Source: Verrucomicrobiota bacterium
GTDB taxonomy: Bacteria > Verrucomicrobiota > Verrucomicrobiia > Chthoniobacterales > UBA10450
Direction: 5' to 3'
Length of the DNA stretch: 49,240 nucleotides
Assembly (NCBI GenBank): GCA_003218975.1
Contig: QHPD01000114.1
Span: 1 to 49,240 of the forward strand
Shown here: positions 6,756 through 44,229 of the stretch, in pieces
Layout of the letters: each line of letters opens with the position of its first letter
Numbering within the stretch: position 1 is the stretch's first letter
Made by a program: the position numbers and the translations under genes
The notes under the pieces: generated by a model
Databases searched by the model: none
Seen by the model: only the letters and a program-made list of their open reading frames with translations
Told to the model about the DNA's origin: nothing

Positions 6756-9700
6756 ATGAGAATCTGGGGAATTGTTGCGGTGGCAGCACTGGCGATCACT
6801 TCGTTCGGAGCGGAAAACGTGGCTCCGACGAAATCGGAACTGGAGCAAATGTACAACAAGGCGTTTCGCGAGTTCGACACGAACAACTTTCCGCAGGCAC
6901 TAAAGGAACTCGACGCCCTCGATGCCCGCCAGCCTGATCTCGCCGCCTCGCAAAATCTGCGCGGCGTCATCCTGATGCGGCAGGGCATCTATGACAAAGC
7001 TGAAGCTGCCTTGCTGGAAGCGGCACGGATCGACCCCAAATTTTGGAACGCGCGGTTTAATCTGGCCGAAATTCCATTTCTCCAAAAAAATTGGGAGGAG
7101 GCGCGGAATCGTTTCCAGAAGTTGCTTTCGAGCAGTCAATCCGATTTAGCGAGCGAAGCGACACAGCTCGTTCAATACAAGATTCTGCTCACGTATCTGC
7201 TGGAAGGTAAAGAGAACATGGTCGATTCCATTCTGGCGAAGCTGGAGCTTTCGTCCGATACCCCGGCTGTTCAATACGTCAAAGCGGCTGTCGCGCTCCA
7301 GCACAAGAATGACAAGGAGGCGAAAGATTGGATGGCAGTCGCGGAAAAGAATTTTTCGCCGCAACTGAACAAGCTGTTCGTGGAATCATTCTACGAGGTG
7401 GGCTGGCTAGAAAGACCGGGTGGCGAGGGAAGGGCCTCTATGCCGCTAATGACGGCCGCGGAGCGCAAGGAAAAAGCAAAGGCGACAGGCCGCGCGAAAT
7501 TCGAAGAGGCGCAGCAGGCGCTGCGGCAGCGCGATCTTGGGGCAGCTCGAAAACTAATCGATGAGGCGGATCAGGCGGAGCCGAATCAACCCGCGACTCT
7601 GAATTTGCGTGGCGAAATTTTGATGGAGCAGAAGGAGTTCGACCAGGCGGAGGCTTCCTTCAAAAAAGCGGCCAAACTGGATCCGAAATTCCGTGAGGCG
7701 CAATACAATCTCGCACAGGTTCCATTTAAGAAAAAAGACTACGCAAAGGCGCGAGAGCGTTTCGAAGCGTTGTTTGAGCGAACGCCCGGTGGTGACAAAA
7801 ATCAGGCTGCGGAGCTGATCAAATTCAAGATTTACATGACGCTCCTGTTGGAGGGGAAAGAAAGCCGGGCGCAGTCGATGATGGAACAATTCCAGTTCAC
7901 TGGAGATACGCCAGCACTGTATTATGCGCAGGCGGCCTGGGAATTTAGACATAACAATGGGGAGAAGGCGGCCGACTGGGTCGCGTCGGCGAAGAAGATT
8001 TATTCGCAAGGGCTGAATAATATTTTTGCCGACGCCCTTTATGACGCTGGCTGGATGCAAGCTCCAGAAGTTGCTTCCGCGCCTGCGTTTGAAGCCGGTA
8101 GTCTCGTTGCCGAGAGCGGTAGCGCTCCGGCAATTGAGCCGAGTCCTATTCCTGATGGCGTTGCCGCGGCGAATAAACGAGAAGCAACGGCGAAGGCCGA
8201 ATCGGTTGCTTCTTCGGGCCTAGTGGCGAACCCGCCGGTTGCTGGGACGAAAGTCACGAGTCTGGAACCAGCGGCTGAACAGGCTTCTGTTTTTTCGACG
8301 AAAGAGCCGAGTGCGGCTGGATTAAGCCAGCCGGAAGCGTCTCCAGCTCCTGTTACGGGATCGTCCCCCGGCGAGGAATCGACGGCCACGACGGCTGCCC
8401 CGAATGGGACGCCGATCGCTTCATCTGCCACTCTCCACGGGCAAAATGATCAGTCAGCCGTTAGTCAGCCAAATCCATCTCCGGCGCCTGTTGTCGCAAC
8501 GAGCCCCGCAACGACGGTCGCGCCGACCAAAATCTCTCAGCCTAGCGTTATCGGGACGGCGAGTCGGCGAACATGGTTTGTCGCCGGATTGCTGTTGGCC
8601 GGTATCTTTCTTTTAGCTGGGGTGGTTGTTTCCCAGCGTCGACGCTACACGTTCAATATACCAAGTCACTTCCCGAACGGATCTCTCATCGGGTCGCGTA
8701 CGTCTAATCTCAGCAAACCCACCACATCGCCCTTGGAAAAGGGCGTTGCTTTGGGTAATGGTTTTTTCGCTGGGCCCCGCCAGGTTTCGTTACAATTAAC
8801 GGCGTCGAAGCCTTTGATGCAGCGGACGGTCTTGCGTTTAACGCAATCGCACCGCGCTTTTGATAGTTCGGCGGATTTGAGAGGCTCAGTCTCACAAGCC
8901 CAAGCTTATCAAAACGCGGAAGCGGATCACAAGGCACAGCAGGTGACTGCGCCGGTCCTTGGGGGCTCAGCCGGTTTAGTTGCCGCAGAAGCTGAAGGGA
9001 CTGTAGCACCCGTCGTTGAGCCGGTAGCAGAGCCTCAGTTCGAAACAATCGACCAAGGCCAACCGGTTGGGCAAATGCTCGGGCCAGCAGAAAAGCCGGA
9101 CGAAGTCCCCGCGGTCGCTGAAGAGGCTGTGGCACCCGCGATTGAGCCGGTAGCAGAGCCTCAGTTCGAAGCAATCGACCAAGGCCAACCGGTTGCCCAG
9201 CAAATACCCATTTCCGCGACGGAACATCCTGCAATTGCGGAGGTTGCCGTGGGCCCATCTTATTCTCCAAATATTTCCAACGCACCTGTATCTTCGCCAA
9301 CAACATCTTTGACCATGCCTGAACAATCTGAACAGCCTCAACCCGCCGAAGTGCCACTCGCCGCAGACGCAGCGCGTCCTGTTTCTGCCGCACACACACC
9401 TGTGCAGCTCACTTTCTCCTTTGAGATCGTCTCTGTACAACTAACACGAACTTTCAAGGTGCGTACCTTGCAAGTGCGGCCCGCATCAAAGATCGTAACG
9501 ATGCGCCTTGCCTCATCGCAACGTTCCCAACCTCAGATTCATCCGCAGGTGGCCTTCGAAGTCGCGAAAATTGAGCCTGCAGACTCTGGTCTCGGGACAG
9601 TCCGGCTTATCAAATCGACACGTCAGCGACAGCAACTAGCGCAGCAACCAGTCGACATCGCTTTGCCTTCATTCGAGGTTACAGCCTTGCAGCCGATTTC

Positions 9701-9974
9701 GAGTTCAGACGCCGCCGCCATGGTCCAGCTTGCTCCGTCTGAGCCAGGAAAGGCCCATGTGCAGGTTACGGCAGACTTCCAGATGGCAGAGGTGGAATTC
9801 TCAACGTGCTTTGAAATAACCGGAGTCGTTCTAAATTCCACTTCTAGGCAAGTTTCTGTGCAGTTGGCTGGCGCCGATCCGAGCGCCATCGAAGGAGCAC
9901 CTGTCTTTAATGTTGCGAATGTTCGCCTTACCGGCAGCGGCGATAGCGAGATACTGGAACTCGATGCCATTTAG
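6756..9974 (+). CDS. TPR protein with signal segment, internal membrane span and repeat-rich C-terminus
   Basis: A 1072-residue protein of unknown function. The ATG at 6756 starts an N-terminal hydrophobic signal (residues 1-17); a frame open to 6672 is less likely. Two homologous TPR modules follow (about 20-230 and 245-455), sharing motifs such as LRGxILMxQ and FNLAEIPF/YNLAQVPF. Then come an Ala/Pro/Ser/Thr-rich linker, a transmembrane segment (about 605-627) followed by RRR, and a second low-complexity region containing a 42-residue tandem repeat (about 750-835, EPVAEPQFE). The last 200 residues carry several beta-like units of the form FEVxxxxL...VQL. It probably spans the inner membrane with TPRs on one face. 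It follows coaX with no clear functional link. Confidence 0.8.
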   Translation: MRIWGIVAVAALAITSFGAENVAPTKSELEQMYNKAFREFDTNNFPQALKELDALDARQPDLAASQNLRGVILMRQGIYDKAEAALLEAARIDPKFWNARFNLAEIPFLQKNWEEARNRFQKLLSSSQSDLASEATQLVQYKILLTYLLEGKENMVDSILAKLELSSDTPAVQYVKAAVALQHKNDKEAKDWMAVAEKNFSPQLNKLFVESFYEVGWLERPGGEGRASMPLMTAAERKEKAKATGRAKFEEAQQALRQRDLGAARKLIDEADQAEPNQPATLNLRGEILMEQKEFDQAEASFKKAAKLDPKFREAQYNLAQVPFKKKDYAKARERFEALFERTPGGDKNQAAELIKFKIYMTLLLEGKESRAQSMMEQFQFTGDTPALYYAQAAWEFRHNNGEKAADWVASAKKIYSQGLNNIFADALYDAGWMQAPEVASAPAFEAGSLVAESGSAPAIEPSPIPDGVAAANKREATAKAESVASSGLVANPPVAGTKVTSLEPAAEQASVFSTKEPSAAGLSQPEASPAPVTGSSPGEESTATTAAPNGTPIASSATLHGQNDQSAVSQPNPSPAPVVATSPATTVAPTKISQPSVIGTASRRTWFVAGLLLAGIFLLAGVVVSQRRRYTFNIPSHFPNGSLIGSRTSNLSKPTTSPLEKGVALGNGFFAGPRQVSLQLTASKPLMQRTVLRLTQSHRAFDSSADLRGSVSQAQAYQNAEADHKAQQVTAPVLGGSAGLVAAEAEGTVAPVVEPVAEPQFETIDQGQPVGQMLGPAEKPDEVPAVAEEAVAPAIEPVAEPQFEAIDQGQPVAQQIPISATEHPAIAEVAVGPSYSPNISNAPVSSPTTSLTMPEQSEQPQPAEVPLAADAARPVSAAHTPVQLTFSFEIVSVQLTRTFKVRTLQVRPASKIVTMRLASSQRSQPQIHPQVAFEVAKIEPADSGLGTVRLIKSTRQRQQLAQQPVDIALPSFEVTALQPISSSDAAAMVQLAPSEPGKAHVQVTADFQMAEVEFSTCFEITGVVLNSTSRQVSVQLAGADPSAIEGAPVFNVANVRLTGSGDSEILELDAI
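9006..9195 (+). repeat. 126-bp near-perfect tandem repeat inside the TPR protein gene
   Basis: Two nearly identical blocks of over 60 bp, offset by 126 bp (42 codons), encode EPVAEPQFE-T/A-IDQGQPV twice. The high DNA identity suggests recent duplication or ongoing gene conversion. Confidence 0.8.
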
Positions 9975-10076
9975 CACGAGGCCTCAACCATTGTAAGAGC
10001 GAGCGCGAACGCTCCGTGTCTCAACCGTGGTGCTTTGTTCTCCCAGCGCCGCTGTCCCGAAATGGTAGTATCGATC

Positions 10077-11195
10077 TCAGGCCCCTTTGATGAAGCGGCC
10101 GGGATTGAGTGTTTGCAGGGGGTGCGGTAAAAAGTCGCCATCTCGACGGACCAATTTACTGTCAAAGTAAATTTCCCCGCCGCCGTATTCCCGCCGCTGG
10201 ATGCTTACCATGTCCCAGTGCACCTGGCTCCGATTGCCGTTATCGGCTTCTTCGTAAGCCTGTCCCGGCGTAAAATGAAACGAACCCGCGATCTTCTCAT
10301 CGAACAAAATGTCCCGCATCGGCTGCAAAATGCGCGGATTAAACCCGAGTGAAAATTCGCCGATGTATCGGGCACCCACATCTGAATCGAGGATCTTTTT
10401 CAGTTTTTCCGTCTCGTTGCTGGTCGCGTCGACGATCTTTCCATTCTTGAATTCGAGACGGATGCCATCGAAACCAATCCCCTGATAGATGCTTGGTGCA
10501 TTAAACGTCACATGTCCTTCCACGGAATGTTTCACCGGACAGCTGAAAACTTCGCCATCGGGAATGTTGCGATCGCCGCCGCAAATCACCGCCGGAATTC
10601 CCTTGATGCTGAAGCGAAGATCCGTATCGGGTCCTTTGATTTCGACGCGATCTGTTTTTTCCATCAGCCGCTTCAGCGCCTTCATGCCAGGCTGCAGTTT
10701 GCGGTAGTCCAGCGTGCAGACGTTGAAATAAAAATCTTCAAATGCCTCCGTGCTCATTCCGGCAAGTTGCGCCATTGATGGCGTCGGCCAGCGCAAGACG
10801 ACCCATTTGGTTTTTTTTACGCGCTGGTCCTGCACCGGCTGCATTTTTTTGGCGATCAATTTCATCGTATCCACCGGCACATCGGACAATTCCGTGATGT
10901 TGTTGCTGCCGCGCACGGCGATGTATGCATCCATTTTTTTCATCCGTGCCAGTTCGTGGCTCGCCAACATGCTTAGCTGTTTATCCGAGGCTTCAAGCGC
11001 GAGCGCGCGGTTGACTCGAGCGTGATACACCTGCACAAAGGGCATCCCGCCCGCTTTACGCGCCGCGCGAATCAGCGCGATGGTCATTTCATCTGGGACA
11101 TCGAATGCTTCAATCAGGACCGTTTCATTCCGCTTGAGGCGAATGGAATATTGCACCAGAATTTTCGCCAGCTTATCAAACCGGACATCGTGCAT
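10077..11195 (-). CDS. M29 family aminopeptidase
   Basis: A 372-residue metallo-aminopeptidase of the thermophilic aminopeptidase family (AmpS/aminopeptidase T type). The C-terminal metal ligands typical of M29 are visible in order: Glu in GEVFSCP, Glu in GEFSLGFNP, His in [12 protein letters not shown], and the HWD motif (VHWDMV). It is expected to be cytoplasmic and to remove N-terminal residues from peptides using two divalent metals. It lies 47 bp downstream of the rsmB-like gene on the same strand, so the two may be cotranscribed. Confidence 0.9.
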
Positions 11196-11242
11196 AGGCG
11201 CTTATCATTCCATCAGCCGTGCCGTATGCAACTCGAGCGGGG

Positions 11243-12496
11243 TTACGCGCTTTGGACAAGTTTCGCTGCGTAAGCGCCATCAAAACCGTCGCGAAAGGGC
11301 AGCGAATATCTTTCTGCTTCCAAGCGCAAGCTCGATATCTCCGCGAGGATACGACGAACAACGTGTTCGTTTTCTTCCGGCTCGAGACTGCATGTGCTGT
11401 AAACAAGGACACCATTCGCCTTCAACAATGGAAGCGCAGCGCGCACAATCTCGAGCTGCCGAGTCTGCATACGCTTGAAATCCGCCTGAGTTAATCTCCA
11501 ACGCACATCTACGCGGCGACGCATCACGCCGGTGTTGCTGCACGGCGCATCAACTAGGATGCGATCGAATGGCGCCACAAAAGCAATTTCTTTTGGAAGA
11601 CGATCGCGTGTCCAATCGTGACCAACAGGATGAATAATTCCGGCGCCCAACCGCGTGACGTTATGCTTCAGTGTTTCCAACCGCTCCAAATCGCGGTCGC
11701 ATGCCATGATGGTTCCATGATCTTGCATAACCTCCGCGATGTAGCCCGTTTTCCCGCCCGGCGCTGCACACGCGTCGAGGATTTTTTCTCCAGGTTTCGG
11801 ATCGAGGAACTGGCAGGCGAGCACGGTGCTTGGATCTTGAATGTAGGAATGACCTGAATCGAGAGCCTTGGTCGATAGATCGTCAAACTCCACAAAATCA
11901 GGATTGCCCGCCAGCACTCGCGAGCTTGGATAAAGCTGGACAAAATTTTCCGGATCGATTTTTAGCCGATTGATTCGGCCATAAACCGGCGGAGGCAGAT
12001 TGTTCCATTTGCACAATGCTTCAGCGTTTTTATCGCCGAAATGCTGCTGCCACCGCGTAACGAGAAACTGGGGGTGCGAGGTGCGAACGAAAAGCGGCTG
12101 CGCATTGCCCCGGCTAAGCAGTTCTTCGCGTCTTCGTCCAGCGGCGCGAAGCAGGCCGTTGATTGCCCCTCGCTGCTTCTTTGGCGCCAGCGCTACGGTT
12201 TCGAAGACGGCTGCGTGTTGAGCCGTTTCCAGGAAGAAAAGTTGGTATAAGCCAAGCCGCAGGATGTCGCGAAGATCGACGTCGATGCGGGAGGCGCGCA
12301 CGCAACCGATCCAGAAATCGAGCAAAGTCAAATTGCGCAGGACGCCATAAAACAACTCGAGGGCAAACGCGCGATCGGACTTCGTAAGATCCGTCTTGGC
12401 AAACGACCGCGAAATAACGGAATCGGCAAAGCGTCTTTCTCTTCGCCATGTGCGCAGCGCCCCCAGCGCAATTTGGCGAGCTGAGAGCCGCGCCAT
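11243..12496 (-). CDS. rsmB: RsmB-type rRNA (cytosine-5) methyltransferase
   Basis: A 417-residue protein with an N-terminal NusB-like RNA-binding domain (about 1-130) and a C-terminal SAM-dependent methyltransferase domain. The SAM motif DACAAPGGKTG (241-251) and the two cysteines of the m5C family, C319 (VDAPCSNTG) and C369 (YSTCSLEPEEN), are clear. By family it methylates C967 of 16S rRNA. It heads a probable two-gene unit with the M29 aminopeptidase. Confidence 0.92.
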   Translation of the reverse strand: MARLSARQIALGALRTWRRERRFADSVISRSFAKTDLTKSDRAFALELFYGVLRNLTLLDFWIGCVRASRIDVDLRDILRLGLYQLFFLETAQHAAVFETVALAPKKQRGAINGLLRAAGRRREELLSRGNAQPLFVRTSHPQFLVTRWQQHFGDKNAEALCKWNNLPPPVYGRINRLKIDPENFVQLYPSSRVLAGNPDFVEFDDLSTKALDSGHSYIQDPSTVLACQFLDPKPGEKILDACAAPGGKTGYIAEVMQDHGTIMACDRDLERLETLKHNVTRLGAGIIHPVGHDWTRDRLPKEIAFVAPFDRILVDAPCSNTGVMRRRVDVRWRLTQADFKRMQTRQLEIVRAALPLLKANGVLVYSTCSLEPEENEHVVRRILAEISSLRLEAERYSLPFRDGFDGAYAAKLVQSA

Positions 12497-26012: not shown

Positions 26013-26028
26013 GATCAACATCGCTGTA

Positions 26029-26049
26029 GCCGGCATCGCTGATGCCGGC
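26029..26049. terminator. hairpin after ygfZ-like gene
   Basis: A perfect 9-bp stem (GCCGGCATC / GATGCCGGC) with a 3-nt loop, 17 bp after the stop codon. There is no U-run, so it may be a repeat-type palindrome as much as a terminator. Confidence 0.5.
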
Positions 26050-26173
26050 TCGCCAGGAAATCTGAGCCAGCTCTAATTGCGTTCGCCCCGCAGCTTGCAT
26101 AAATTTTAATGTTGCGTTTTAAAGATAGCGCCGTGTAAAGTCCCCCGCTTCTGTTTTTCAGTTTTTCACTTTT

Positions 26174-39927: not shown

Positions 39928-40908
39928 ATGAAGCGCTCTTCGTTATCGAATTCCCCAGCAGATCGACAACCTGAGATCCACCAAATCCTGGCGATCCTCC
40001 ACAAGTGGGGGATTCATACCCTTGGGCAGCTTGCGGCGCTGGATAAGGAGCAGCTTGGCGCACGCCTTGGCCCCGAAGCCATCCGAATGTGGGAGCGCGC
40101 GAACGGGCAATCCAATCGAGTGCTCAAACTGGTTCGACCGCCGGAGTCATTCGAGGAGAGTTTCGAATTTGAAAATGAAATTGAAACGGCCGAGCCGCTC
40201 CTGTTCATGCTCCGCCGCTTTTTGGAGCAGCTCGCAGTGCGGTTGAGCGCGATTTATCTCGTCGCAAAAGAACTGACGCTACGAATCACTTTTGCAGGCA
40301 AACACAATTACGAGCGGGTTTTCAAAATTCCGCAGCCGACCAATGATGTCGATCTTCTCTTCCGCATGCTGCACACGCATCTGGAGAATTTTAAATCGGA
40401 GCATCCGATCATTGCTGTCGCGCTTAGTGCGCAGCCAATTAAACCCGCCAGGGAACAATTCGGATTATTTGAAACCACATTACGCAATCCCAATCAGCTT
40501 TATGAATCGCTGGCGCGATTGACCGCATTCCTCGGCGCTGATCGAGTCGGCACGCCGGTTTTGGAAGAGACCCATCGACCGGATGCATTTCGAATGGAAC
40601 CGTTCACGTGGCATGGGCTTCCAGCCCATCCTATCGACAAGATGTCGATGCCACGGCCTGCGCTACGAAGATTTCGGCCCGCCGCACCTGCATCAGTCTT
40701 GTTGGATGAAGACACGCCTGCGCACGTTCGCGGCGTAGATTCCTGCGGCAAAGTCGTTAGGCAACACGGCCCCTATTTGTCTTCTGGAAATTGGTGGGAC
40801 GAAAAATGGTGGACGCGCGCCGAATGGGATCTGCAACTGGAGGACGAGAGTTTGATTCGGTGCCACGAGAGCGAAGGAACCTGGAACATTGATGGAATCT
40901 ATGACTGA
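39928..40908 (+). CDS. imuB: ImuB C-terminal half (separate gene)
   Basis: 326 residues homologous to ImuB from just after the point where the 33432-33953 half stops. A helix-hairpin-helix segment (LHKWGIHTLGQLAALDKEQLGARLG) comes first, then a Y-family little-finger-like domain (about 55-215), the FGLFE motif that resembles a beta-clamp or ImuB-type interaction site, and the GNWWDEKWW...EWDLQL C-terminal domain. The first ten residues (MKRSSLSNSP) are not family sequence and look newly acquired. A 47-bp palindrome at 40608-40654 adds about 16 residues in frame. dnaE2 follows on the same strand. Confidence 0.88.
   Translation: MKRSSLSNSPADRQPEIHQILAILHKWGIHTLGQLAALDKEQLGARLGPEAIRMWERANGQSNRVLKLVRPPESFEESFEFENEIETAEPLLFMLRRFLEQLAVRLSAIYLVAKELTLRITFAGKHNYERVFKIPQPTNDVDLLFRMLHTHLENFKSEHPIIAVALSAQPIKPAREQFGLFETTLRNPNQLYESLARLTAFLGADRVGTPVLEETHRPDAFRMEPFTWHGLPAHPIDKMSMPRPALRRFRPAAPASVLLDEDTPAHVRGVDSCGKVVRQHGPYLSSGNWWDEKWWTRAEWDLQLEDESLIRCHESEGTWNIDGIYD
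40608..40654. repeat. cloverleaf-like palindrome inside imuB C-terminal half
   Basis: Outer arms GTGGCAT (40608-40614) and ATGCCAC (40648-40654) enclose two hairpins: ATGGGCT-TCC-AGCCCAT (40613-40629) and CGACA-AGA-TGTCG (40635-40647). It is read in frame as TWHGLPAHPIDKMSMPR, which interrupts the family stretch between DAFRMEPF and ALRRFRPA. Confidence 0.8.
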
Positions 40909-40911
40909 AAT

Positions 40912-41022
40912 TGTCATCTCGAGCGGGGCGAGGGATCTCATAACAAGGCGATCGATCACTCTCAGTCTCCAGCGTGATCAATGCGCCGTAGGGAAGATCT
41001 TTCGCTTGCGCTCAGGATGACA
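40912..41022. repeat. TGTCATCTCGAGC palindromic repeat
   Basis: A 111-bp element with ends TGTCATCTCGAGC and GCTCAGGATGACA. It fills almost the whole gap between the imuB C-terminal half and the dnaE2 start at 41027. Confidence 0.7.
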
Positions 41023-41026
41023 TGCC

Positions 41027-42283
41027 ATGTGTTACATCGAGTTACATGCGTGCAGCGCGTTTAGCTTTTTGCGGGGCGGTTCGTTCCCGGAGCAATTAGC
41101 TGAAGTCGCGGCCGAGTTGGAAATGGCGGCGATGGCTTTGCTCGATCGCAATGGCATTTACGGCGCACAACGATTTTCTGTCGCCGCGCTGGAAAATAAT
41201 GTGCGGCCGATCATCGGCTGCGAGTTATCGATGGAAGACGACAGCATTCTGCCTGTGCTGGTCGAAACCCGGGTCGGCTACAAAAATTTGTGCGAACTCC
41301 TGACCCAGGCGCATTTGCGCAGTGAGAAAGGAAAATGCGCAGCGCGGTGGGATGAACTGCAGCAATTCGCGAAAGGCTTGGTCGTTTTTCTGGGTAGCGC
41401 ATGCGTCTCGCGTGCTGGCGAGGGCGTCCTCGCCATCGCGAACTTTTCTGGACGTGCGAATTCCATGACGAGTGGCGAATCCTCAGAAAGATTGTTTCGG
41501 CGCGACGCCGAAACCAGCACGCGAGACGCATGCGCTCCCCAGATTCGTGCCCAGTTTCTCATCGATGCGTTCGGTCCTGAAAATGTGTTCGTGGAAATCC
41601 AGCGGCATTTCATTCGCGGCGAAGACCGCATCAATCGTGAACTTGTCGATCTTGCGCGTACAAATCGATTGTCGATCCTGGCCACGAACGGTGTACAGTA
41701 CGCGAAGCCGTACGGGCGCGAAGTGCTGGATGTCTTCACCTGCATTCGCGAGCACACTCATCTGGATACTGCCGGAAAGTTGCTCGCGCAAAATGCCGAG
41801 CGCCATTTGAAAAGCGATCGTGAAATGCGCGAACTTTTTCGCGATTTACCAGAAGCGATTGAAAATACGTCGCGACTGGCCGAGCGGCTCACGTTTTCGC
41901 TGGAAAATCTTGGGTACGAATTTCCTGAATATCCGGTGCCGGCCGGTCATACGATGGATTCATTCTTGCGCACTATTGTCTGGTTTGGCGCGCAACAACG
42001 TTATGCTGCGATCAGCATCAAGGTGAAGCACCAGCTCGAAGAAGAACTCGCACTCATTACGAAGCTCGGTTTTGCCGGCTATTTTTTGATTGTCTGGGAC
42101 ATCGTCAATTTCTGTCGCGAACACAACATCATGGTTCAGGGCCGCGGCAGCGCCGCGAACAGTGCGGTTTGTTATTGCCTAGGGATCACGCCGGTTGATC
42201 CGGTGAGCAACCATCTCGTGTTCGAACGTTTTTTAAACGAGAGCCGCAAAGGCTGGCCGGACATCGATCTCGATCTTCCCTGA
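41027..42283 (+). CDS. dnaE2: DnaE2 error-prone polymerase, N-terminal fragment
   Basis: 418 residues covering the PHP domain and the palm start of DnaE2, the C-family translesion polymerase of the ImuA-ImuB cassette. It opens MCYIELHACSAFSFLRGGS with PHP motifs, and a 153-bp palindromic element is read through in frame (about residues 122-172). It continues through AGYFLIVWDIVNF and QGRGSAANSAVCYCLGIT to WPDIDLDLP, where D414 and D416 match the two catalytic Asp of E. coli DnaE (D401, D403). A frameshift then gives a stop at 42281-42283. The rest continues in another frame. Confidence 0.88.
   Translation: MCYIELHACSAFSFLRGGSFPEQLAEVAAELEMAAMALLDRNGIYGAQRFSVAALENNVRPIIGCELSMEDDSILPVLVETRVGYKNLCELLTQAHLRSEKGKCAARWDELQQFAKGLVVFLGSACVSRAGEGVLAIANFSGRANSMTSGESSERLFRRDAETSTRDACAPQIRAQFLIDAFGPENVFVEIQRHFIRGEDRINRELVDLARTNRLSILATNGVQYAKPYGREVLDVFTCIREHTHLDTAGKLLAQNAERHLKSDREMRELFRDLPEAIENTSRLAERLTFSLENLGYEFPEYPVPAGHTMDSFLRTIVWFGAQQRYAAISIKVKHQLEEELALITKLGFAGYFLIVWDIVNFCREHNIMVQGRGSAANSAVCYCLGITPVDPVSNHLVFERFLNESRKGWPDIDLDLP
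41390..41542. repeat. 153-bp palindromic element, copy 1, in frame within dnaE2
   Basis: Terminal inverted repeats of 29 bp with one mismatch (begins CTGGGTAGCGCATGC; the inner 23 bp at 41396-41418 and 41514-41536 match perfectly). Inner hairpins are GGCGAGG-GCGT-CCTCGCC and GTTTCGGCG-CGA-CGCCGAAAC. Length is exactly 51 codons with no stop, so the gene reads through it. Copy 2 at 43639-43791 has the opposite orientation. Confidence 0.92.
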
Positions 42284-44229
42284 ACTTTTCGCCGAGCATT
42301 ATTGATCGGTTCTCGCACCTGTTCGCGAATGGCGATTTCCCACACACCATGGATTTGGAATCTCAGATCGAGCAGGCGGGTTTGCCAAAAAATCATCCGC
42401 GCATGCCGGCGTTCATTCGATTGTATCACGCGATTTATGGATTGCCACGACACCTTGGTCAGCATTCTGGTGGCATGATTATCTGCCAGAACAAACTCAG
42501 TTTGTTTGTCCCGCTGGAAAACGCCTCGATGCCAGGTCGTGTCGTCGCGCAATGGGACAAGGACGATTGCGAAGACCTAGGCATCGTGAAGGTGGACTTG
42601 TTAGGCCTCGGCATGATGTCGGTGATGCAGGACGCGTTTGAGTTATGCCGCGAACGCGGCCGGCCACTCGATCTGGCGCACATCCCGAAAGATGACGAGA
42701 AGACGTTCGAGATTATGCAGCGCGCCGACACGATCGGCATTTTCCAAATCGAGAGTCGCGCCCAAATGGCCACTTTGCCGCGGATGAAACCGAAATGTTT
42801 TTACGATGTCGTGATTGAAGTGGCAATCATTCGGCCGGGACCGATCCAAGGTGACATGGTGCATCCGTATCTGGCGCGTCGCGCTGGACGCGAACCGCCC
42901 ACATATTTTGATCCGCGTCTGGAGCCTGTTTTAAAACGCACGCTCGGTGTCCCGTTGTTCCAGGAGCAAATGCTCAAGATCGCAATGGTAATGGCGGATT
43001 TTTCCGGCGACGAAGCGGAAGAGTTGCGTCGCGCGCTGAGCTTTCATCGTTCTGAAGAACGGATGAACAAGGTCTGTGCAAAATTGCGCATAGCGATGGA
43101 ACGCAAAGGTGTGACCCCGGACAAGATCGACAAAATCGTCCAGTCCATCTCATCGTTTGCGCTTTACGGATTTCCGGAGTCACATGCGATCAGTTTCGCC
43201 ATTCTGGCGTATGGCAGCGCGTATTTAAAAGTGCATCGTGCGCCGGAATTTTATGCGAGCCTGTTGAACAACCAGCCGATGGGTTTTTATACGCCTGCGA
43301 CGATTGTCAAAGATGCGCAGCGGCATGGGCTGAAGATCAAGCCGGTTTGCGTCTTTCAATCCGAATGGCGTTGCACGGTCCTCGATGACAACACGGTGCG
43401 GTTGGGATTTTGCGTGGTGAACAGATTGCGGCAGGAACACGCTGAGGAACTCGTTAGGCAACGACGGGATCGACCATTCGATTCGTTGGATGATTTCAAG
43501 CGTCGTGTCCCGCTTTCAAGAGATGAATTGCGCACAGTAGCGGAATTGGGTGCGCTCAATTGTTTTGCTGAGCATCGCCGTGCGGCGATGTGGGAAGTGG
43601 AGGAGGCGCTGCACGATGACTTGCTCGATCGGACGACTCTGGGTAGCGCATGCATCTCGCGTGTTGGTTTCGGCGTCGCGCCGAAACAATCTTTCGAAGG
43701 ATTCACCACTCGCCATGGATTTCGCGTGTGCAGAAAAGTTCGCGATGGCGAGGGCGCCCTCGCCAGCACGCGGGACGTGTACGCTACCCAGAAACTGCTA
43801 TCGCCGCTTCAGCGAATGACCTTACCCGAACGCGTGCGGGCCGATTACGAGACTATGAACCTGACGACCGGGCCACATCCGATGAAGCTTTTGCGCAGAA
43901 GGTTGCCGAATATTTGGCGGGCAATCGATCTTCCGCACGCGCGACACGGTTCGATCATTCAGATCGCTGGAAATGTCATTTGTCGTCAGCGTCCGGGCAC
44001 GGCGAAGGGATTTGTTTTTATCAGCCTCGAAGACGAAACCGGCGTTTCAAATGCAATTGTCGAGCCAGACTTGTTCGAACGGTTCCGGCTGGTGATCACT
44101 GAAGAAGCCTTTCTGCTCATCGAAGGCGAAGTGCAGAATTCTGACAATGTGGTTTTGATTAAAGCGCGCGAGATCAGACCGGTTGCGCACGAACAACTCG
44201 TCGGAAGCGAGTCACACGATTTTCATTAA
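42283..44229 (+). CDS. dnaE2: DnaE2 error-prone polymerase, C-terminal fragment
   Basis: Homology resumes at 42283 in a different frame (NFSPSIIDRF...), and a possible new ATG is at 42349, which would give 626 residues. It includes LPRHLGQHSGGM, the third catalytic Asp (VKVDLLGLGMM, D83 counted from 42349), the fingers region, the helix-hairpin-helix domain and an OB-fold end (AGNVICRQRPGTAKGFVFISLEDE). The highly conserved DnaE2 segment that normally follows DIDxDF (ITYRxRSAxRxVGKxLG type) is missing, so some tens of residues are deleted. A second 153-bp palindrome is read in frame. Polymerase activity is doubtful. Confidence 0.87.
   Translation, partial: NFSPSIIDRFSHLFANGDFPHTMDLESQIEQAGLPKNHPRMPAFIRLYHAIYGLPRHLGQHSGGMIICQNKLSLFVPLENASMPGRVVAQWDKDDCEDLGIVKVDLLGLGMMSVMQDAFELCRERGRPLDLAHIPKDDEKTFEIMQRADTIGIFQIESRAQMATLPRMKPKCFYDVVIEVAIIRPGPIQGDMVHPYLARRAGREPPTYFDPRLEPVLKRTLGVPLFQEQMLKIAMVMADFSGDEAEELRRALSFHRSEERMNKVCAKLRIAMERKGVTPDKIDKIVQSISSFALYGFPESHAISFAILAYGSAYLKVHRAPEFYASLLNNQPMGFYTPATIVKDAQRHGLKIKPVCVFQSEWRCTVLDDNTVRLGFCVVNRLRQEHAEELVRQRRDRPFDSLDDFKRRVPLSRDELRTVAELGALNCFAEHRRAAMWEVEEALHDDLLDRTTLGSACISRVGFGVAPKQSFEGFTTRHGFRVCRKVRDGEGALASTRDVYATQKLLSPLQRMTLPERVRADYETMNLTTGPHPMKLLRRRLPNIWRAIDLPHARHGSIIQIAGNVICRQRPGTAKGFVFISLEDETGVSNAIVEPDLFERFRLVITEEAFLLIEGEVQNSDNVVLIKAREIRPVAHEQLVGSESHDFH
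43639..43791. repeat. 153-bp palindromic element, copy 2, in frame within dnaE2
   Basis: Same length as copy 1 and closely similar to its reverse complement, so inserted the other way round. Ends are CTGGGTAGCG and CGCTACCCAG. The terminal repeats have several mismatches. It is read as 51 codons without a stop (GSACISRVGFGVAPKQ...), between the HhH region and the linker to LPERVRADYETMNL. Confidence 0.9.

Follow-up and report, generated by a model that had tools for sequence, protein, structure and literature searches.

The window analysed here is the whole 49,240-nucleotide stretch of contig QHPD01000114.1 (assembly GCA_003218975.1) from a Verrucomicrobiota bacterium. It holds a dnaE2 (imuC) gene, preceded by part of an ImuB-like polymerase gene and carrying two inverted copies of a 153-bp element, with the following features:

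39928..40908, + strand: ImuB-like Y-family polymerase, C-terminal part (IMS_C), upstream of dnaE2
41027..42283, + strand: dnaE2 (imuC), 5' part, with the PHP domain and the start of the polymerase domain
41390..41542, - strand: copy 1 of the element, in the PHP domain (dnaE2 site 1) and opposite in orientation to copy 2
42282..42283, + strand: deletion junction, 127 bp shorter than in same-genus orthologs, with frameshift and stop
42286..44229, + strand: dnaE2, 3' part past the deletion, with the remainder of the palm, the finger, HhH, element 2 and the OB fold (ORF start codon at 42349)
43639..43791, + strand: copy 2, GTAG-type REPIN in dnaE2 site 2 (HhH/OB linker), encoding LGSACISRVGFGVAPKQSFEGFTTRHGFRVCRKVRDGEGALASTRDVYATQ
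43639..43667, + strand: outer REP of copy 2, GGTAGC head and hairpin
43668..43686, + strand: inner hairpin of copy 2, TTTCGGCG-TCG-CGCCGAAA
43747..43764, + strand: second inner palindrome of copy 2, GGCGAGGGCGCCCTCGCC
43763..43791, - strand: outer REP of copy 2, inverted, CCAGCACG...GCTACCCAG

The two copies lie ~2.1 kb apart and align over 153/153 bases without a gap, at 89.5-90% identity. Copy 1 begins at codon 122 of the ORF 41027-42283 and copy 2 at codon 431 of the ORF 42349-44229, each in frame and stop-free, which bears out the inverted in-frame pair described in an earlier note on this DNA. That note's placement of both copies in one gene stands in part: the two ORFs are parts of a single DnaE2, matching the error-prone polymerase profile PRK05672 at positions 5-397 and then from 464, but the gene is discontinuous in this assembly. 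After '...DIDLDLP', 127 bp found in relatives are absent (CTTCCC joined to TGAACTTTTCGCC), so that a TGA follows immediately. The deletion reflects either a true pseudogene or an assembly error, and because the genome's own dnaE2 is broken, the window copies could now sit in a pseudogene. The in-frame claim therefore rests on 22 same-genus genomes in which the dnaE2 frame stays open for 1029 codons or more. In an AlphaFold model of the window's 626-aa DnaE2 part, the overall fold is that of Pol III alpha, and the element models as a disordered linker: residues 429-481 have pLDDT < 50 and nearly all lack secondary structure, between well-modelled flanking domains. The further suggestion that the pair could promote inversion of the 2 kb between its copies finds no support; no such inversion was seen, the window is collinear with its relatives, and genome G010 carries an inverted pair of copies of the same family (family A) yet its dnaE2 frame is intact over 1094 aa.

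The element is a GTAG-type REPIN, consisting of paired inverted REPs that each carry a GTAG head and hairpins. In the consensus of 65 full copies, each inverted end shows the GTAG head, a GCACGCG-TCT-CGCGTGC hairpin and an inner hairpin, and the middle, ~40 bases long, is variable; a GTAG (or GTRG) head followed by an imperfect hairpin is also seen in the site alignments, and the two inverted REPs around the spacer make up a long hairpin. As single strands, the window copies fold far better than shuffled sequences (z = -5.9 and -9.6). The element's own genome has 48 matches, ~16 of them full length, which puts the element far from chance; in the census of this genome, which covers 457 kb picked around matches, the copies are dispersed and mostly extragenic. 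Of 34 other genomes in the genus, 33 contain the element, which is rare beyond the family. Close records by sequence are soil Verrucomicrobia and Chthoniobacterales MAGs, and the element has no relative among the phage records searched and no match in Rfam. A direct duplication of copy 1 might have given rise to copy 2, which nests in a clade of site-1 dnaE2 copies but, at 89% identity, stands no nearer to copy 1 than to the copy of G003 (89%); three copies from outside dnaE2 share this clade.

How far the reading frame constrains these copies was assessed on 79 distinct full copies, a sample chosen by match in which the dnaE2 loci were deliberately included. Seventeen lie in dnaE2, and G003 has one in a uvrA-like gene; a few more show weak open read-through, and the remainder fall outside long ORFs. 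This assignment uses a read-through ORF test, since a strictly thresholded codon-score test of the flanks failed to classify most copies and overlooked the greater part of dnaE2. Thirteen of the 17 dnaE2 copies share one class of length modulo 3, and the 61 other copies are spread 23/23/15.

The earlier note had taken the stop-free reading of copy 2, on the opposite strand of the element, as the mark of a sequence selected to be open in many frames. The comparison with shuffled sequence that it proposed was run, and it agrees with this idea to a degree: dnaE2 copies have 3.65 open frames vs 2.18 in shuffles, and copies outside dnaE2 show a mild excess, 2.82 vs 2.00 in dinucleotide shuffles. 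The depletion in the latter is located mainly in the conserved ends, however, and so amounts to one family-level fact rather than many. The family consensus is open in three of six frames, a value that shuffles often equal (P = 0.37), and family-wide stop-codon depletion as a trait was rejected at this level. In 93 of 103 ends outside dnaE2, one of the three frames is closed by the TAG of the GTAG head, and the lengths of those copies are unconstrained. For the family as a whole, selection for many-frame openness is largely refuted and, as an account of the element, quite improbable; openness is needed only in the frame that the RAYT ORF described below also uses. Length, consensus and head together indicate that openness is a condition for survival in dnaE2 and not a trait of every copy. 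What holds from the earlier claim is openness in two orientations at dnaE2, where site-1 family-A copies occur in intact genes either way round, + in G003, G010, G012, G021 and G034 and - in G007 and G028, the latter being also the orientation in the window (- strand).

Across the genus, the two dnaE2 sites are occupied over and over. Site 1, in the PHP domain, holds an insert in 24 of 27 readable genomes, and the other three have short remnants, for example GGTAGCGCGTGCGCTACCCAG. At site 2, in the linker that joins the HhH and OB domains, 30 of 31 genomes hold one and the last has a remnant. No insert was found at either site in five outgroup genera. About six insert families occur at site 1 and about ten at site 2, and many of the inserts have GGTAGC or GGGGAGC as shared outer ends, set in one codon phase, and differ in their hairpins. 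On the DnaE2 tree, the Fitch minimum is at least 13 changes at site 1 and at least 16 at site 2, counts that are approximate since family labels were assigned by eye and remnants were scored as states. Between species, pS is 0.18-0.21 in the element vs 0.57-0.58 in dnaE2, so that the copies either postdate the divergence of the species or have been homogenised. The ratio pN/pS reaches 0.73 and 0.52 in the element vs 0.15-0.16 in the rest of dnaE2; the inserted peptide is thus little constrained and probably does nothing for DnaE2.

These values bear on whether the inserts are under selection for some role in the host protein, for instance in modulating the mutasome polymerase or the mutation rate. 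PMC3733652 speculates on such a role for REP-tagged repair genes, and DnaE2, RecG, UvrA and RarA are indeed DNA repair proteins, with both dnaE2 sites occupied near-universally in the genus. Against such a function, unrelated peptides fill the same site, some species have remnants only, the pN/pS of the element is far above that of the remaining gene, and MetH, CarB, AlaS and Sua5 are hosts as well. We regard it as improbable, if slightly less so than many-frame openness.

Other repeats were observed at or near these sites. Directly upstream of the window's dnaE2, at 40913-41021 (- strand), lies a repeat of another family, of HPERSE/ARDD type ('GTCATCCTGAGCG...'), and this family fills dnaE2 site 2 in G026 and G016. 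Half of a different GTAG palindrome, CTGTAGCCGGGATCGGTGATCCCGGC, is found at 26024-26051; its family fills site 2 in G028, G008, G019 and G004. In two more distant Verrucomicrobia (L152 and L186), site 2 holds the unrelated repeat peptides PLPAGEGQGEGE and NVEHAPGTSKFDVQRS.

A search of the element's own genome for Y1_Tnp located a RAYT inside recG, with family-A ends on both sides and a single 926-codon open frame running through the whole. The parent-type unit, REP end-RAYT-REP end, thus stands in frame in recG in the same genome as the 153-bp element. The in-frame, RAYT-like Y1_Tnp loci are as follows, the host names beyond recG, metH and carB being given from sequence:

L017 (G000), 9085-11808: recG
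L021, 27-3695: metH, in an ORF that also starts with a second RAYT fragment
L022, 12431-16492: carB
L288, L289 and L295: alaS
L281: rarA-like gene
L297 and L298: sua5/yrdC-like gene

The metH and carB loci belong to the same genome as the recG unit of L017, the genome of the 153-bp element, and each of these three genes is single copy there. The ends of the recG unit match copy 2 at 42-50 of 55 bases on each side; copy 2 runs antisense to this unit, and copy 1, read on the gene strand, has the same polarity as it. The 153-bp element retains both ~55-bp ends, with a ~40-bp spacer in the place of the RAYT. Most of the recG RAYTs keep the HUH motif and the catalytic tyrosine (MPDHVH and YIxRNP, here YILRNP); that of G001 has lost the tyrosine. 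A RAYT is usually, if not strictly, a stand-alone gene, whereas the recG, metH, carB and alaS units lie inside the host ORF. Stand-alone RAYT ORFs also occur (L259, L260 and L266), and in a few stand-alone cases in the genus the ORF is open through both REP ends.

Within the genus, near relatives of the recG RAYT are mostly found inside long ORFs: recG is a host in 14 genomes, carB in about ten, metH in six and alaS in three, with single cases in rarA-like and sua5-like genes. The single recG site is empty in 12 genomes and holds only a REPIN in one, and the others carry A-, B- or C-type RAYT units or composites. A genome from another family of the order (G038) has a RAYT at the same recG site, and phylum-wide, well-assembled genomes included, the closest RAYTs are again within recG or alaS. 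The recG RAYT is, judged by its codons, under purifying selection as strong as RecG itself, with pN/pS of 0.17 vs 0.16 in the RecG flanks, although synonymous sites in the RAYT are near saturation. Together with the mostly conserved HUH and tyrosine motifs, this ratio makes the transposase likely to be active. The REP ends of the recG units have pN/pS of 0.70 and 0.46 at low synonymous divergence, as expected for ends conserved as DNA. One stretch was left out of these counts: the recG/RAYT regions of G022 (C334) and G000 (C63) are 100% identical, though the dnaE2 genes of the two species differ, and G022 also carries its own recG beside the G000-identical stretch, which is probably a contig shared between MAG bins.

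An in-frame position in conserved single-copy enzymes resembles that of inteins, and the inserts might accordingly be introns or inteins removed from RNA or protein. Neither a splicing domain nor a ribozyme was detected: Rfam gave no intron family at dnaE2 or at four RAYT-host loci, Pfam scans of RecG, MetH and CarB gave no intein domain, and the ends of the inserts are REP hairpins. This is the least credible of the explanations considered, and we think it very unlikely.

A stronger competitor is pure survivorship, in which an ordinary extragenic REPIN inserts at random and persists in two very tolerant dnaE2 loops, neither the element nor its RAYT being adapted to coding sequence. Most copies do lie outside long ORFs with unconstrained length, site 2 of distant relatives holds other kinds of repeats (HPERSE-type and PLPAGEGQGEGE-type), and the insert is modelled as disordered. 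Survivorship leaves unexplained the in-frame RAYTs of recG, metH, carB and alaS, whose ORFs are open across both REP ends, as well as the finding that both full-length family-A copies located in ORFs within the 457-kb own-genome sample are in dnaE2. We consider it doubtful as the full account, though clearly better placed than a host function.

We favor instead, with a probability of roughly 0.77, a reading of the element as a non-autonomous REPIN, compatible with coding sequence, whose source is a RAYT unit living inside proteins. The evidence for mobility comes from comparing draft genomes, mostly MAGs, through presence and absence across species, and it is in this comparison that the anatomy, linkage, recurrence and selection pattern are directly seen. 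The REPIN is presumably moved by a RAYT, a single-strand HUH/Y1 transposase recognising GTAG-headed hairpins, and from their linkage we infer that the recG RAYT acts on family-A ends. RAYT units with REP ends would insert as single strands. Insertion would be blind to frame, with gene-breaking copies lost, and the surviving dnaE2 copies would be those of frame-compatible length in two flexible loops. These loops may be revisited repeatedly because they are tolerant, or because an old-element remnant, GGTAGC or GGGGAGC, makes a good target that would also set the codon phase of the next element. Since the ends are stop-free in the GGT-AGC frame and nearly symmetric, a copy of suitable length can be read in either orientation. 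An in-frame RAYT may be expressed via its host gene, which would explain why its ends are translatable. The 153-bp REPIN would have arisen from the RAYT unit by internal loss; its spacer has no convincing RAYT remnant, the best match being 12 bases, so that this origin is an inference. More broadly, we envision a protein-embedded RAYT lineage in Verrucomicrobiota, read through in single-copy housekeeping enzymes, expressed via them and under purifying selection, that sheds coding-compatible REPINs which reoccupy loops as the GTAG remnant sets target and codon phase; we judge the odds for and against this wider picture to be about even.

Several known systems share parts of this arrangement. 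Rickettsia palindromic elements are palindromic repeats of similar size that lie in frame in protein genes, and the present element resembles them in its in-frame insertion into intact genes, as seen in the 22 dnaE2 ORFs of the genus. Here the phylum is different and a matching transposase is present, and the likeness is drawn at the level of description. IS200/IS605 elements have a Y1 HUH transposase, hairpin ends, and autonomous as well as short non-autonomous forms; unlike these, the unit described here has REP-type ends and is translated together with the host protein that contains it, and the recG unit leaves no room for tnpB. Closest are the GTAG REPs and REPINs with RAYTs (REPtrons) of PMC3733652 and PMC3116915, which share the GTAG head, the hairpin, the inverted doublets, the dispersed and mostly intergenic copies, and a HUH/Y1 transposase flanked by the same repeats. 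Unlike known REPINs and REPtrons, RAYT units are here found in frame inside RecG, MetH, CarB, AlaS and other proteins, and throughout one genus many families have repeatedly refilled the same two positions in dnaE2.

Intragenic GTAG REPs as such are known. According to PMC3733652, they often lie in genes of DNA synthesis and repair, including DnaE2 and UvrA, one recB site is occupied in two Xanthomonas species, and the Verrucomicrobia (Opitutus terrae) are richest in intragenic GTAG repeats; its relevant sections do not describe RAYT genes inside host ORFs. In PMC6006769, unexpectedly long Y1 proteins were discarded as fusions or annotation errors. We found no report of in-frame RAYTs in the open-licence literature, where absence is weak evidence; since the literature searched was open-licence only, their novelty is likely and not certain.

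REPs are extragenic by name, and since PMC3733652 it has been a puzzle why they turn up in genes for DNA repair. A matching RAYT in frame in RecG, with relatives in CarB, MetH and AlaS, offers a testable answer, namely that these elements can be tolerated and expressed inside proteins, and suggests a transposable-element family able to live within proteins without destroying them. The occupied positions provide a natural set of places where essential enzymes tolerate inserts, and at the two dnaE2 sites more than 12 element replacements are traceable within one genus. In alaS, two different REP/RAYT types are observed at apparently the same position in different species, and the uvrA-like ORF of G003 (L222, C127) carries two in-frame REPIN inserts from two different families.
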